A stretch of DNA of 55,893 nt. Origin: Halomonadaceae bacterium T82-2 (GTDB lineage Bacteria > Pseudomonadota > Gammaproteobacteria > Pseudomonadales > Halomonadaceae). The stretch covers positions 1 to 55,893 of the forward strand of contig LSBP01000025.1 in NCBI GenBank assembly GCA_001577635.1. Reading direction: 5' to 3'. Of this stretch, positions 12,867 through 27,682 are shown piece by piece. Position 1 is the first letter of the stretch; every line of letters starts with the position of its first letter. The translations under genes were made by a program, and so were the position numbers. A model generated the notes under the pieces. It did no database searches and was not told the origin of the DNA. It saw nothing but the letters and a program-made list of their open reading frames with translations.

Positions 12867-13043
12867 ATGTACGTTTACCGCATCATGCTGTTTCTGGTCT
12901 TCGGCGGCTACCTGCTGTCGCCGGCGCTGATGAGCGGCTGGGCGGTTCCCGGCATGGCCTGGTATCGCCCCTTCCTGATCTGGGGCGGGCTGATCGCCCT
13001 GTCGGTGTGGCTGGAACAGAAAAGGAAGCTCGATGAGCATTAG
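12867..13043 (+). CDS. cbrX: small membrane protein upstream of cbrA, CbrX-like
   Basis: A 58-codon ORF starting MYVYRIMLFLVFGGYLLSPA, with two hydrophobic segments (about residues 6-22 and 36-50) and a basic tail (EQKRKLDEH). Its stop overlaps the cbrA start by 11 bases, so translation of cbrA is coupled to it. Pseudomonas putida has a small ORF, cbrX, in exactly this position, which affects cbrA expression. Homology is inferred from position, size and hydrophobicity rather than a recognised motif. The ribosome site is weak. Confidence 0.7.
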   Translation: MYVYRIMLFLVFGGYLLSPALMSGWAVPGMAWYRPFLIWGGLIALSVWLEQKRKLDEH

Positions 13044-15973
13044 CCTGACGGGGCTGCTGGCGCTGACGGCCGGCTATCTGGGGCTGATGCTGCTGGCCGC
13101 GAGTGCCGTGGAACGGGGCTGGCTGTCGACGCGGATCGTGCATCACCCGCTGGTCTACGGCCTGTCGCTGGGCGTCTACGTCAACGCCTGGGGGCTGTTC
13201 GGCAGCATCGCGCTGGCCGCCGAGATCGGCTACGGCTACCTGGCCTACTTCCTGGGCGTGGCCGGCGCCTTCCTGCTGGCACCGGTGCTGCTGGTGCCGA
13301 TCCTGCGCCTGACCCGCACCTATCAACTGGCCTCGCTGGCCGACCTGTTCGCCTTCCGCTTTCGCAGCCGCTGGGTCGGCACGCTGGTGACCGTGATCAC
13401 CCTGCTGGCGGTGCTGCCGCTGCTGGCCCAGCAGGCCCAGGTGGTGGGCGCCATCGCCTATCGCCTCAGCGGACTCGCCGACCCGGCCTGGCTGGCGCTG
13501 GCCTTCTGTGTGCTGGCGGCGGCGCTGGCCCTGCGCCTCGGCGCGCGCCATGCTCACCTCAACGCCGATCACGACAGCCTGACCGCAGCCGTCGCCACCG
13601 GTTCGCTGCTCAAGCTGGGCGCCATGCTCACCCTGGGTGTCATCGCCCTGTACGGCGTCTTCAGCGGCCCGGCCGACCTTCAGCAATGGCTCGAGGGCCC
13701 CGGACAGCCGCTGCAGGCACTGGCCGCCCGTCTGCCACCCGGCCAGTGGCGTACCCTGCTGCTGCTGTTCTTCGCCGCCGCCTTTCTGGCGCCCCACATG
13801 TTTCACATGGTCTTCGCCCAGGGACCGTCACGCCCGGCGCTGTTGCAGGCCGGCTGGCAACTGCCGCTGCTGCTGTTGCTGATCGCCCTGCCGGCGCCGC
13901 TGATTCTCTGGGCTGCGCAGTCGCTGGGAATCGCCTCGCCGGAAACCGGGCTGGCCTATCTGGCCTTCATGCTCAGCGACTCGCCCGGCGTGATCGCGCT
14001 GGTCCTCATCGCCGGACTCGCCGCCGCCGCCGGTACCCTGGTGGTCACTACCCTGTCCCTGGCCGGCATGGCGCTCAATCATCTGGTGCTGGTGGCCCAC
14101 CCGCCGGCGCGCCAGGACAACCTCTATCGCTGGCTGCTCGGCCTGCGCCGCCTGCTGGTCATCGCCGTGATTCTCGGCGGCTGGGTATTCTACCGGCTGG
14201 TGGGCGTGCATCACGACCCCACCACGCTGGGGCTGGTGGCCTTCATCGGCATCGCCCAGTGTCTGCCCGGCATGCTGGCGGTACTCTACTGGCCGGGTGC
14301 CAACCGCAAGGGCATGGTCAGCGGGCTGCTGGTCGGCAGCCTGTTGTGGCTGGGCGGGCTTTGGCTGCCGCTGGTCGTCGACCTTCCGCCGCTGGTGCTC
14401 ATCCCGCCGGGGCTCGAGCTGCTCGAGAACGAGCCGGCCTGGTACGCCGTCACCCTGATCTCGCTGGCCGCCAACGCCCTGACCTTCATCGGGGTCTCGC
14501 TGATGACGCGCACCTCCGACGGGGAACGCGCCGCCGCGGAGGCCTGTTCGATCGACGCCGTCATCCGTCCCAAGCGCCTGCCGCTCAGCGCCCGCACGGC
14601 ACAGGACTTCAAGCGCCACCTGAGCAGCGCCCTGGGGCCCGATGTCGCCGCCCGCGAGGTCGATCACGCCCTGGATGACCTGGGCATGTCGCCGCAGGAA
14701 AGCCGGCCCTACGCCCTGCGGCGGTTGCGGGGGCGGCTGCAGGCCAACCTGTCGGGCCTGATGGGGCCGTCGGTGGCGCGAGACATCGTCGACCGGTTCC
14801 TGCCCTTCCAAACCGGCCCGCAGCCGGCCACCGACGACGTGCATTACGTCGAGAGCCTGCTCGAGGCCTACCGCACACGCCTGACCGGTCTGGCTCGCGA
14901 GCTCGACGGACTGCGCCGCTACCATCGCCGCACCCTGACCCAGCTGCCGATCGGCCTGTGCGCCTTCGGCGACGACGGCGAGCTGCTGATGTGGAACGAC
15001 GCCCTGGCGCGACTGTCCGGCATCGACGGCGCCAGCGTGATCGGTGCCCGCCGCGAGAGCCTGCCGGCGCCCTGGGCGGAATTGCTGGGGCGCACCTTCG
15101 ATCATCACGACCGCTTCCTCTACAAGCAGCCCGTGCCGCTGGCGGCCGGCACCCGCTACCTGACCCTGCACAAGGCCGACCTCGACGTGGCCGACGGCGA
15201 ACGCGGCGGCACCGTGGTGCTGATCGAGGATCACAGCGACATGAAATGGCTCGAGGACGAACTGGTTCATGCCGAACGCCTGGCGTCCATCGGGCGTTTG
15301 GCCGCCGGCGTCGCCCACGAGATCGGCAACCCCATCACCGGCATCTCCTCGCTGGTCCAGAACCTGCGCTACGACACCGACGACCCGGTGGTGCTGGAGT
15401 CCGCCGATCAGATCCAGCAGCTCACCGAGCGTGTCTCGCGGATCGTCGGCTCGCTGGTGAGCTTCGCCCATGGCGGCCGGCACGGCGGGCAGGCCGTCGG
15501 CATGACGTCCTGCGATGTCCGCGAACTGGCCGACGAGGCCCTGCACTTGATACAGCTGGCCCGCTCGGGCGAGGATATCGTCTACCGAAACGACTGCCCC
15601 GCCGGCCTGACGGTGCAGGGAGACACCCAGCGTCTGGTGCAGGTGCTGGTCAATCTGCTCGGCAACGCCCGGGACGCCAGCCCGCCGGGCGCCGCGGTCG
15701 TCGTCGAGGCGGGAGCGCAGGACGGCGGGGTGTGCCTGGCCGTGGTCGACACCGGGTGCGGCATCGATCCCGAGATTCGCGATCACCTGTTCGAACCCTT
15801 CACGACCACCAAGCCTCCGGGGGAAGGCACCGGACTCGGCCTGTCGCTGGTCTACAGCATCATCCGCGACCACGGGGGCCAGGTGCGCATCGAATCGCCC
15901 CTTCCCGACCTCGATCACGGCACCCGCATCGCCCTGTGGCTGCCGGAACCTTCTCAGGATGGCAGAGACCCCG

Positions 15974-15996
<23 letters not shown>
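13033..15996 (+). CDS. cbrA: sensor histidine kinase CbrA with SLC5 transporter domain
   Basis: Inner-membrane sensor of the CbrA-CbrB system, which in pseudomonads balances carbon and nitrogen use and histidine uptake. The N-terminal ~480 residues are a sodium/solute symporter-like domain with about 13 hydrophobic segments. A linker resembling the STAC domain follows, then a PAS-like region ([20 protein letters not shown]). The HisKA H-box ([15 protein letters not shown]) has phospho-acceptor H762. The ATPase domain shows the N-box [11 protein letters not shown]1 DTGCGID and G2 [11 protein letters not shown]. The total of 987 is the usual length. It overlaps cbrX at its start and cbrB at its end. 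The ligand is not visible from sequence. Confidence 0.95.
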
Positions 15997-17368
<1,372 letters not shown>

Positions 17369-17390
17369 CGGCGCCCCTCCCTGGGCATAC

Positions 17391-17436
17391 CCGTTCCCGA
17401 CGCCCCTGGCGAAAGCCGAATGGTCGCCGGGAACGG
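17391..17436 (+). terminator. long stem-loop after cbrB
   Basis: A perfect 9-bp outer stem (17391-17399 with 17428-17436) encloses a smaller GGC-GCC stem, starting 22 bases after the cbrB stop. There is no T-run directly after it. It may terminate cbrB or protect its 3' end. Confidence 0.45.
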
Positions 17437-17530
17437 CTGCGACCCATGTCGCCCAAGACCATGGTCTAACAGGGATTTTTTCGTGAAAAACGACACCTCG
17501 CCTCCGTGCGAGCCGGCGAATCTGCACCAC

Positions 17531-17582
17531 TTGTTACCATCCCACACAGCATTTTCCCCATTACGGGGCGTCAGCGGTAACA
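17531..17582 (+). promoter_or_regulatory. candidate CbrB activator site upstream of the CrcZ-like RNA
   Basis: TTGTTACC at 17531-17538 and GGTAACA at 17576-17582 form a spaced inverted pair, 75-125 bases upstream of the -24 box. That is the normal distance for an enhancer-binding activator. Pseudomonas CbrB sites are recalled as GTTAC/GTAAC-type repeats, but I cannot verify the exact consensus. An AT-rich tract (17624-17650) between the site and the promoter could help looping. The same 17-base left half (17531-17547) recurs upstream of panB. Confidence 0.55.
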
Positions 17583-17656
17583 CCCAGGCCACCCACAACG
17601 AACTCCCGACAGCCATGGATTCTTAATACGCTGTTTTTAAAACAAAAAGCGACACG

Positions 17657-17672
17657 TGGCATGCACGGTGCA
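17657..17672 (+). promoter_or_regulatory. sigma-54 (-24/-12) promoter of the CrcZ-like RNA
   Basis: TGGCATGCACGGTGCA has GG at -24 (17658-17659) and GC at -12 (17670-17671) with exact sigma-54 spacing. It matches the consensus TGGCAC-R-N4-TTGC at all but two positions. Initiation is expected near 17683. It follows cbrB, whose product is a sigma-54 activator. Confidence 0.8.
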
Positions 17673-17682
17673 CTATATCGGG

Positions 17683-18171
17683 CAAGAAGAACAAAACCCG
17701 GATGCCGGCGACGCCAACAACAACAAGAGACGTTCGCGGTAACACACGTTGCAAGAACCCAATAACAAGCCAGGCAACGACATCGATTCCCGAGGGCGAA
17801 CAACAACAAGCACCCAGGCGAGGAATCCACCGGCCACAACAATCACAACAGGGCCGAGACAATCCGGTAATGTATCGGGACGCGGCGCTCCGTGCACAGG
17901 ACGAACAACAACAACGCCTGTCCGAGGAGCACCTCCGGCAACAATAACAAGCCGCCGGAGGGAGGCAGACACCCCTGCCGTCGTGGTTGGATTATTGTTT
18001 TGAATACGAGGCGGTCACCATCAGGAAGACAACCAACAACAACATCCTGCTTGCCTGATAACTCCGAATTGGTGACTGTGGTGCGTATTCAAGGCGATGC
18101 GCCATCACGAAGAAAAATCAACAGCACGGACGCTGTCGGAATGCTTAAGGGGAGGCCACCGGCCTCCCCTT
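17683..18171 (+). ncRNA. crcZ: CrcZ-like small RNA with repeated CA motifs
   Basis: About 490 bases with no supportable protein frame lie between cbrB and pcnB, the exact place of crcZ in Pseudomonas. At least eight A-rich tracts of the AAnAAnAA type occur: near 17684, 17716 (AACAACAACAAG), 17761, 17799, 17838, 17904, 17940 and 18031. Such tracts are the CA motifs bound by Hfq (with Crc) on CrcZ. A sigma-54 promoter precedes it and a strong hairpin terminator ends it. By analogy the RNA sequesters Hfq/Crc when CbrAB is active and relieves catabolite repression. The 5' end is predicted, not measured. The predicted length is somewhat longer than the roughly 370-410 nt of Pseudomonas CrcZ. Confidence 0.8.
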
Positions 18172-18175
18172 TCTC
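18147..18175 (+). terminator. terminator of the CrcZ-like RNA
   Basis: A perfect 11-bp stem (18147-18157 with 18161-18171), ACC loop, ends in CCCCTTTCTC. It separates the RNA from pcnB. Confidence 0.85.
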
Positions 18176-18247
18176 ATGGGCTTTCCTCATGAGCCTTCGA
18201 CACGCCTGTTTCCACCCCGTTTCGGGCCGCGGCGCGACTTCAATGCT

Positions 18248-18275
18248 TTGCAAGGCTCCAGCGCTCCGCTACACT
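18248..18275 (+). promoter_or_regulatory. candidate sigma-70 promoter of pcnB
   Basis: TTGCAA (18248-18253), 16 bases, TACACT (18270-18275). The start would fall near 18282, about 28 bases before the pcnB ATG and just after the crcZ terminator. Confidence 0.5.
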
Positions 18276-18309
18276 GGCTTTTTCGCGAACAGCGAGACAC
18301 TATCGCGGC

Positions 18310-19719
18310 ATGTTCAAAGGATTTACCCGCTTTCTGCAACGCCCCGGTGAACGATTGAAGACACTCTTCGGCAATCAGGACGGCTCCGGCCAGACCCCCG
18401 GGCTTCGCATCATTCCCCGAGAAGATCACCCCGTTTCGCGGCGCCTGTTCAGCGACAACGCGCTCAAGGTGCTCTATCGCCTGCACAATGCCGGCTTCGA
18501 GGCCTATCTGGTCGGCGGTTGCCTGCGCGACGCCCTGCTCGGCAAGACGCCCAAGGATTTCGACGTCGCCACCGATGCCACGCCGGAACAGTTGCGTGAA
18601 CTGTTCCGCAACTCGCGCATCATCGGGCGGCGTTTTCGCATCGTCCACGTACGCTTCGGGCGCGAGATCATCGAGGTCACCACCTTCCGCGGCCGCCCCG
18701 GCGACGAGCACGGCGAGCATCTCGCCCACCAGTCCGAAGACGGGCTGCTGCTGCGCGACAACGTCTGGGGCAGCGTCGAGGAAGACGCCATGCGCCGTGA
18801 CTTCACGGTCAACGCGCTCTACTACAACATCGCCGACTTCTCCCTGCACGATTGGGCCGGCGGCATGGCCGACATCGAAAGCCGCACGCTGCGCCTGATC
18901 GGCGAGCCGGAAGTCCGCTACCGTGAGGATCCGGTGCGCATGCTGCGGGCGATTCGCTTCGCCGCCAAGCTGGACTTCAGCCTGGCCGCGGCGACCGAGG
19001 CGCCGATCCGCGACATGGCGCCGCTGCTGCTGCAGATCCCCCCGGCACGCCTGTTCGAGGAAGTGCTCAAGCTCTTCCTCTCCGGCCACGCAGTAGCAAC
19101 CTATCACCTGCTGCGCGAGTACGGCCTGTTCGCCATGCTCTTCCCCGAGGCGGACGAGTCCATCGCCGAGCTCGATTGGGCCGAGCCCCTGATCCTCCAG
19201 GCACTGGCCAATACCGACGAGCGCATCCGCCAGGAGCGGCCGGTAACACCGGCCTTCCTGTTCGGCGCCCTGCTCTGGCCCGGCGTGCAGTGGCGCACCG
19301 GCCAGCTTCAGGCGGAAGGCATGCCGCCGATTCCCGCCCAGCAGACCGCTGCCCAGCAGGCCGTGTCGCGCCAGATCCAGCACACCTCGATCCCCAAGCG
19401 CTTCAGCCTGCCCATGCGCGACATCTGGGACCTGCAGGAACGTCTGCCCCGGCGCCGCGGCAAGCGCGCCTTCCAGACCCTGGAGCATCCGCGCTTCCGT
19501 GCCGCGTACGACTTCCTGCTGCTGCGCGAGAGCGCCGGCGAGGTTGCCCCCGGCCTGGGGTACTGGTGGACGGCCTTCCAGGAGGGTGACGAACACGAGC
19601 AGCGCCGCCTGCTCGGCAAGGTCGACGCCGACCCGGCCGGCACGCCCGGACCGCGGCGACGCTCGCGCAAGCGCCGCCGTGGGGGGCGCAATCGCCGCTC
19701 GACACCCGATCATGACTGA
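18310..19719 (+). CDS. pcnB: poly(A) polymerase I
   Basis: Class II nucleotidyltransferase that adds 3' poly(A) tails and promotes RNA decay. The active-site motif is LVGGCLRDALLGKTPKDFDV, with the metal-binding DFD. RRFRIVHVRFGREIIEVTTF and RRDFTVNALYYN follow, and RYREDPVRMLRAIRFAAKL is the neck signature. The C-terminus is highly basic (RRRSRKRRRGGRNRRS), typical of PcnB and absent from CCA-adding enzymes. Length 469 is normal. The ribosome site before the ATG at 18310 is weak, in line with the low expression known for pcnB in E. coli. It overlaps folK by 8 nt. Confidence 0.95.
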   Translation: MFKGFTRFLQRPGERLKTLFGNQDGSGQTPGLRIIPREDHPVSRRLFSDNALKVLYRLHNAGFEAYLVGGCLRDALLGKTPKDFDVATDATPEQLRELFRNSRIIGRRFRIVHVRFGREIIEVTTFRGRPGDEHGEHLAHQSEDGLLLRDNVWGSVEEDAMRRDFTVNALYYNIADFSLHDWAGGMADIESRTLRLIGEPEVRYREDPVRMLRAIRFAAKLDFSLAAATEAPIRDMAPLLLQIPPARLFEEVLKLFLSGHAVATYHLLREYGLFAMLFPEADESIAELDWAEPLILQALANTDERIRQERPVTPAFLFGALLWPGVQWRTGQLQAEGMPPIPAQQTAAQQAVSRQIQHTSIPKRFSLPMRDIWDLQERLPRRRGKRAFQTLEHPRFRAAYDFLLLRESAGEVAPGLGYWWTAFQEGDEHEQRRLLGKVDADPAGTPGPRRRSRKRRRGGRNRRSTPDHD

Positions 19720-27304: not shown

Positions 27305-27574
27305 TCAGCGGCGCAGCCCCAGACGCTGGATCAGCGACTGATAACGCTCGAAGTCCTTGCGCTTGAGGTAGTCGAGCAGTTTGCGGCGCTGGTTGACCAT
27401 GCGAATCAGGCCACGACGGGAGTGGTGATCCTGCTTGTTGGTCTTGAAGTGGGACTGAAGGCCGTCGATGTTGGCGGTCAGCAGAGCCACCTGAACTTCG
27501 GGGGAACCGGTGTCGTTGTCACCACGGCCGTATTCCTTGACGATTTCGGCCTTCTTTTCAGCGGTCAATGCCAT
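27305..27574 (-). CDS. rpsO: 30S ribosomal protein S15
   Basis: Primary 16S rRNA-binding protein of the 30S platform. [56 protein letters not shown] and [12 protein letters not shown] are the full set of S15 signatures. Length 89 is exact for the family. The start is the ATG at 27574; in-frame codons upstream would add an unsupported extension. It follows truB after about 108 bases, which may contain an autoregulatory leader. Confidence 0.98.
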
Positions 27575-27616
27575 CTGTGTCTCCAGTAAGCAATATGCCT
27601 GATGGGGATGAATGTC

Positions 27617-27642
27617 GGAGACCACGCATATTTGCAGTCTCC
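27617..27642 (-). promoter_or_regulatory. possible S15 mRNA leader hairpin
   Basis: A 6-bp outer stem (27617-27622 with 27637-27642) and an inner GCA/TGC stem occur 43 bases before the rpsO start. S15 represses its own mRNA by binding leader structures in several bacteria. This is a candidate only; no known S15 motif was matched. Confidence 0.3.
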
Positions 27643-27682
27643 CCGTACGCCGCGTGAGCGGCGACGATAGGCGCCACCGGCT

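Follow-up and report, generated by a model that had tools for sequence, protein, structure and literature searches.

A predicted CrcZ-type regulatory RNA between cbrB and pcnB in a Halomonadaceae genome

The cbrB-pcnB interval and its features

The window, that is, the whole stretch of DNA analysed (55,893 nucleotides), carries the following features around the interval that separates cbrB from pcnB:

13033 to 15996, + strand: cbrA, sensor histidine kinase (ORF with HisKA and HATPase_c domains)
15959 to 17368, + strand: cbrB, sigma-54-dependent response regulator (Response_reg and Sigma54_activat domains)
17457 to 17466, no strand: palindrome GACCATGGTC, also found in CbrB-less relatives
17523 to 17529, + strand: TGCACCA, like one half of an NtrC box (consensus from PMC8743547)
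17532 to 17537, + strand: TGTTAC, CbrB-type subsite F1 (consensus from PMC8871633)
17577 to 17582, + strand: GTAACA, CbrB-type subsite at the R2 distance, 45 bp after F1, with conserved spacing
17657 to 17671, + strand: sigma-54 -24/-12 element TGGCATGCACGGTGC, by sequence match only
17683 to 18174, + strand: predicted CrcZ-type RNA of 492 nt, its start taken from the -12 element and its end from the terminator
17684, 17716, 17761, 17799, 17904, 17940 and 18035, + strand: exact AAnAAnAA clusters before 18044
17994 to 18098, + strand: 3' hairpin with a 15-bp stem (17994-18008/18084-18098), an inner stem (18011-18018/18072-18079) and one A-tract in the loop
18147 to 18174, + strand: terminator-like hairpin, by sequence and fold prediction
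18310 to 19719, + strand: pcnB, flanking landmark (TIGR01942, 537 bits)

The gap of about 940 bases reported by the initial annotation measures 941 bases, from the end of cbrB at 17368 to the start of pcnB at 18310, and is overlapped by two ORFs from the list of those reaching 100 aa, one of 132 aa on the - strand (17218-17616) and one of 152 aa on the + strand (17892-18350). The predicted RNA lies between cbrB and pcnB, and the order cbrA-cbrB-RNA-pcnB is common to the Halomonadaceae window and to families f2, f20, f21 and f44. The CbrB of the window has the receiver and AAA+ sigma-54 domains, is an ortholog of Pseudomonadaceae CbrB and is 62% identical, across 470 aligned columns, to the CbrB located beside an Rfam-positive CrcZ in f21. 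Across the aligned part, its CbrA is 43-50% identical to the CbrA proteins adjoining CrcZ in other families (49.6% for f21 over residues 409-971, where the f21 locus sequence ended). In the Pfam scan of CbrA, HisKA and HATPase_c alone were above threshold and the SLC5 domain was not called.

Upstream of the predicted RNA, the -24/-12 element is found at 17657 as originally proposed. The consensus of CbrB sites is TGTTAC-N12-14-GTAACA-N15-19-GTAACA (PMC8871633); the window has F1, beginning 125 bp before the -24 element, and the GTAACA at the R2 distance (N39), and the middle subsite R1 is absent. These two half-sites and the long hairpin at 17994-18098 are additions to the initial annotation. 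A full NtrC box was also sought in this promoter, and the best match was no better than those of shuffled sequences (P = 0.61). In another locus, L042, the Rfam family P36 'Pseudomonas sRNA' covers the CbrB-site region upstream of CrcZ (1345-1405).

The RNA itself contains several CA (AAnAAnAA) motifs. At least eight had been announced between 17684 and 18044; seven exact clusters lie in this interval and an eighth is reached there only by counting a degenerate one near 17838. A further exact cluster at 18110 gives eight within the predicted RNA (17684 to 18117, + strand), and with the cluster at 17641, upstream of the promoter, the gap holds nine in total; 100 dinucleotide shuffles average 0.41, with no more than 3 in any of them. 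In the whole 56-kb window, 11 clusters are present on the + strand, eight of these in 17683-18174, and five on the - strand. Folding predicts the eight clusters to be mostly unpaired, with mean unpaired probabilities of 0.73-1.00. The outer stem of the 3' hairpin consists, in the fold prediction, of AUUGUUUUGAAUACG and CGUAUUCAAGGCGAU paired over 15 bp, and the 11-bp terminator described at 18147 is found as a hairpin at 18147-18171, followed by a short T run (TTTCTC, stem bases included).

Conservation of the RNA in Halomonadaceae

A search for CbrB in 121 Halomonadaceae genomes gave a match of at least 62% identity in 89, and a weaker paralogue only in the other 32 (best E 1e-99 to 1e-89). 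The synteny survey suggested by the initial annotation was performed on the 30 best loci, window included: the gap before pcnB carries six to ten tracts and the TGTTAC-GTAACA pair, 44-46 bp apart, in 30/30, and a strict sigma-54 match in 29/30. Forty more divergent loci of the family were added, resulting in 70 CbrB-positive loci, window included. The promoter was found by script in 66 of them and both half-sites were present in 66/66, at a spacing of 44-46 bp in 58 loci, 35 bp in two and 55 bp in six. These spacings differ by steps of about 10 bp, one helical turn, which keep the sites facing the same side of the DNA, in line with binding by a protein. The four loci outside this count (L077, L094, L097 and L100) had no promoter or core by script; three of them, L077, L097 and L100, do carry tracts and half-sites. 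The RNA is present in some form at 69 of the 70 loci, as a 3' core in 68 and as promoter and tracts only at L077; no RNA was seen at L094. At Halomonadaceae loci where pcnB was found, it is located downstream of the RNA.

The 3' segment is almost invariant across the alignment of 30 Halomonadaceae loci. When the hairpin was evaluated in 40 sequences, 98.4% of the cells could pair, compared to 30-44% in slid versions, and changes on both sides of a pair were observed in 13 cells (3.3 expected), a value reached in none of 500 shuffles. All of these double changes fall in the inner stem. Counted by other measures, the four double-change pairs were matched by 28/500 shuffles and the 14 further pair types by 22/500. 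In the outer stem, 12 of the 15 pairs never vary in the 40 sequences, and this stem gives no covariation evidence.

A model built on this hairpin matched once in each of 12 genomes among the 293 of the order, all 12 in Halomonadaceae (f1); among the 32 genomes listed, matches included, those with no match begin outside f1. The window genome holds a single copy, at the crcZ place. Applied to 30 CrcZ loci outside the family, the family model gave one chance-level match (E 2.2). A core stem found by hand in these other families has both arms in 25/30 loci, with 10-11 of 11 pairs formed (an earlier arm pattern had found arms in 8/30); each locus pairs its own arms slightly better (mean 10.2) than arms combined across families (9.1), a weak indication given that the arm patterns were partly picked to pair.

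The invariance of the outer stem (12/15 pairs over the 40 sequences) exceeds what pairing alone needs, and could point to an RNA that binds Hfq and works chiefly by base pairing via the 3' hairpin, the A-tracts serving as Hfq docking sites and not as a sponge. We regard such a mode of action as unlikely: the number of tracts is above what docking needs, and the conserved letters are predicted to be paired in the window RNA.

Known systems, spread across the order and genomes without CbrB

When the Rfam CrcZ covariance model was run, as the initial annotation had advised, it recognised two short stretches of the window with scores of 11.2 and 9 bits, for a cut-off of 95 bits; these scores fit the view of an inter-tract sequence without recognisable likeness to Pseudomonas. 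With Rfam curated cut-offs, no family was matched at the cbrB-pcnB gap, and because the gathering score of RF01675 (CrcZ) is not reached we call the RNA CrcZ-type and do not file it in RF01675. Elsewhere in the window, a ribosomal S15 leader was detected at 27518-27645 (RF00114, 46.3 bits).

The likeness to CrcZ of Pseudomonas and Azotobacter (RF01675) includes the place between cbrB and pcnB, the sigma-54 element with CbrB sites upstream, the terminator, an A-tract at the 5' end plus several more, and a long-range stem of U-rich and A-rich arms, of which Rfam draws 5 bp. However, the window RNA is longer (492 nt predicted compared to a 398-position model), its stem forms a hairpin of 15 bp whose inner stem was found in Halomonadaceae only, subsite R1 is missing, and the inter-tract sequence fails the Rfam model. 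CrcY and CrcX of Pseudomonas likewise share the promoter type and the A-tracts, but the one hairpin-RNA copy of the window genome is at the crcZ place.

Passages of a review (PMC8871633) and of a research paper (PMC6296734) present CbrAB as unique to Pseudomonadaceae, in Pseudomonas and Azotobacter. Open-access titles and abstract openings concerning Halomonas, Marinobacter, Oceanospirillales and Acinetobacter yielded no report of CrcZ outside Pseudomonas and Azotobacter, and cbrAB transcripts have been reported in a marine community (PMC5073097). Across the order, the Rfam CrcZ model gave matches in 50/244 genomes at E <= 0.001, of which 11, from f21 and f2, are above the cut-off. CbrB-like proteins were found in 236/293 genomes and 100/119 genera at E <= 1e-120, a self-chosen threshold; some families score near it, and orthology is not certain there. 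A scan of viral contigs for CbrB gave 14 loci at 35-48% identity, which were left out of the counts.

The stretch following cbrB was compared at 40 loci drawn from 28 other families. A sigma-54 match leading into an A-tract was found at 34/40 loci, in 25/28 families, when shuffles of these stretches give 0.05 loci, and 18/28 families have a locus with over four tracts and a count that none of 60 shuffles reached. This combination is absent in 6/40 loci, among which L360, L372 and L378 have neither the promoter nor an excess of tracts. In a collection of named genomes, the promoter pattern used on its own detected at least 119 loci. Among the 80 listed, from genera that include Halomonas, Vreelandella, Chromohalobacter, Litchfieldella, Onishia, Marinobacter, Motiliproteus, Nitrincola, Marinobacterium and Pseudomonas, four or more tracts occur in the next 450 nt at 75, compared to 0/346 random pieces of the same loci. 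The remaining five have fewer than four tracts; L233 and L288 lack tracts entirely and were probably matched by chance. Of the 78 listed loci with any tract, 74 have the first one starting 11-19 nt after the TGC of the -12 element. Both a CbrB before and a PcnB after were found at 30 of the 80; Pseudomonas loci with neither adjoining are, we infer, CrcY/CrcX. The extension of the system, proposed for Halomonadaceae, would take in a large part of the order beyond this single family. Combined, these sequence comparisons indicate that the CrcZ/CbrAB system is apparently far more widespread in the order than stated in the cited papers.

This material also bears on whether the transcript could belong to pcnB, as a long and regulated 5' leader, or to cbrB, as a 3' region, its A-tracts then tuning the neighbouring gene and not acting in trans. 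The RNA does lie upstream of pcnB at the Halomonadaceae loci where pcnB was found, and in Azotobacter a cbrB-crcZ co-transcript is processed into working CrcZ (PMC6292655). On the other hand, the 11-bp terminator hairpin closes the unit before pcnB, although its T run is short, and eight tracts are hardly needed for the leader of a single gene. In genome G299 (family f8, locus L143), CrcZ adjoins pcnB with CbrB about 187 kb away, showing that CrcZ and CbrB need not be neighbours, and many of the listed Pseudomonas loci carry the promoter-RNA unit with no cbrB before it and no pcnB after it. We therefore hold a role confined to the neighbouring genes to be very improbable, and retain that of a separate CrcZ-type RNA.

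Within Halomonadaceae, 30 of the 32 CbrB-less genomes have kept the hairpin RNA (weakest E 2.3e-7), which was not shown by G017 and G018. At these 30 loci (L121, L154-L187), a strict sigma-54 match is present in 27 and PcnB lies downstream in all 30; the CbrB half-site pair was found in none (0/30), and in 25 a GluQ-like match occupies, upstream, the place held by cbrAB in the window. Promoter scoring covered 27 of the 30; L162, L171 and L180 were out, of which L171 and L180 carry a sigma-54 match and L162 does not. The GACYATNGTC palindrome, about 200 bp before the -24 element, occurs in 28/66 CbrB-positive and 24/27 CbrB-less promoters scored, and GCACCA, placed at -145 to -131 relative to the -24 element, in 46/66 and 24/27, respectively. 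A CbrB-like regulator of 41-43% identity in two g16 genomes (L136, L137) was considered and rejected as CbrB, since the adjoining kinase-domain match to CbrA reaches just 35-36%.

The NtrC box has the consensus TGCACCAnnnTGGTGCA (PMC8743547). It was scored against shuffles in the CbrB-less promoters, L171 and L180 being left out because no core was found. In g16, 7/9 promoters scored reach P <= 0.003, the best being TGCACTAAAATAGTGCA with 14/14 positions, and three have two strict TGCACYAnnnTRGTGCA boxes exactly 32 bp apart. In g4, 4/12 promoters have P < 0.05, as do 2/9 CbrB-positive controls, multiple tests being uncorrected; L178, L185 and L187 showed no NtrC-type box. In this respect the CbrB-less relatives, mainly g16, resemble NtrC-run sigma-54 promoters such as that of glnK, whereas the window promoter has the TGCACCA half-site only. 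NtrC protein is present in the two genomes scanned for it (737 and 743 bits). Among the 21 P-II loci examined, a sigma-54 match is found a short way ahead of the gene in six, and four of these six have a 17-bp TGC-N11-GCA box upstream. As a reading of the sequence, putative NtrC control of the g16 promoters is well supported; in CbrB-less genera beyond g16 it is only suggestive. The g16 boxes suggest a rewiring from carbon to nitrogen control. More tentatively, and at somewhat less than even chances, CrcZ and CbrAB may be the ancestral relay of the whole order, several Halomonadaceae genera without CbrAB having kept the RNA as its sigma-54 promoter passed to NtrC, in which case nitrogen shortage would now trigger the release from catabolite repression.

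Hfq, Crc and the proposed action of the RNA

The window genome encodes one Hfq (136 bits against P. aeruginosa Hfq). The search for crc in the genome, also proposed at the outset, retrieved a Crc-like protein whose top PDB match is P. aeruginosa Crc (264 bits), followed by 2myi, deposited as exodeoxyribonuclease III (261 bits); further exonuclease entries score at most 216 bits. Four proteins of the exonuclease/endonuclease superfamily are present in the genome, of which this one was searched against PDB. Its NCBIfam name is exodeoxyribonuclease III, and no Crc model is among its four matches. GDxN is the catalytic motif of exonuclease III; a separate exodeoxyribonuclease-like protein of the genome (L146) has GDFN, while at the same place the Crc-like protein has GTWH and Crc has GSLY. 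The protein is taken here as Crc, a name that follows its best PDB match. The gene order, the CbrB-type half-sites, the sigma-54 element, the tracts, Hfq and a Crc-like protein are all present, which agrees in substance with the initial annotation in crediting the lineage with the whole CbrA-CbrB-CrcZ relay, except that 32 of 121 Halomonadaceae genomes are without CbrB.

In Pseudomonas, published abstracts describe Crc as a repressor of carbon-source uptake and use. Start regions were examined genome-wide for tracts. AAYAAYAA occurs 3-14 bases before an ATG in 27 matches (25 distinct sites), compared to nine for the reversed pattern. Eleven of these open onto ORFs of 100 aa or more; ten were scanned and T350 (128 aa) was left out. 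The ten comprise two DctP proteins, XdhA (470 bits, cut-off 467), PuuE (531 bits), a xanthine/uracil permease, a family-5 binding protein, an AMP-binding enzyme, an ABC ATPase, one protein with no Pfam family, and a BCCT protein that matches its model from position 220 only and whose tract-led start probably lies inside its gene. Tracts thus precede the start codons of uptake and purine-catabolism genes, which are possible targets in a list drawn up without gene-class control.

An A-rich region of the same genome (G000:C43, about 22.65-22.95 kb, L008), with at least five AAnAAnAA tracts and with neither a sigma-54 match nor a CbrB site pair, was considered as a second decoy RNA and is not put forward as one: apart from one 48-nt element, it has no match in 60 other genomes of the family. 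The 48-nt element (L399-L410; G000:C27:2745-2790 and G000:C43) occurs in 34/61 family genomes, often in two copies, and has no Rfam match. One copy lies some 100 bp away from a gene of P-II (glnK) type and, by eye, directly behind the end of an amtB-like gene. The element ends, by eye, in a terminator of the opposite strand, and it could be an RNA derived from a 3' end.

Given the shuffle comparisons, the conservation and the paired hairpin, we regard a chance A-rich stretch with no function as refuted. We are confident, short of certainty, that the region encodes a CrcZ-type regulatory RNA; its transcription, its dependence on CbrB and RpoN, its binding to Hfq and its physiological role are inferred. 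Judged from its sequence, the RNA is probably a decoy for Hfq/Crc. When the preferred carbon source is exhausted, CbrA would activate CbrB, which would bind TGTTAC/GTAACA and drive transcription, by the sigma-54 polymerase, of an RNA some 490 nt long. A-tracts bind to the distal face of Hfq; the eight mostly single-stranded tracts would bind Hfq, with Crc as its partner, and the sequestration of Hfq would free mRNAs with the same tracts in their start regions.

Such an RNA could let salt-loving bacteria switch to poorer food sources, a switch so far described in Pseudomonas and the closely related Azotobacter. Its wider spread gives an evolutionary series that shows which parts of the RNA stay fixed, and the CbrB-less genomes are natural cases in which the activator was lost and the RNA kept. 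For Halomonas-type bacteria, the finding provides a concrete and testable circuit of carbon control.
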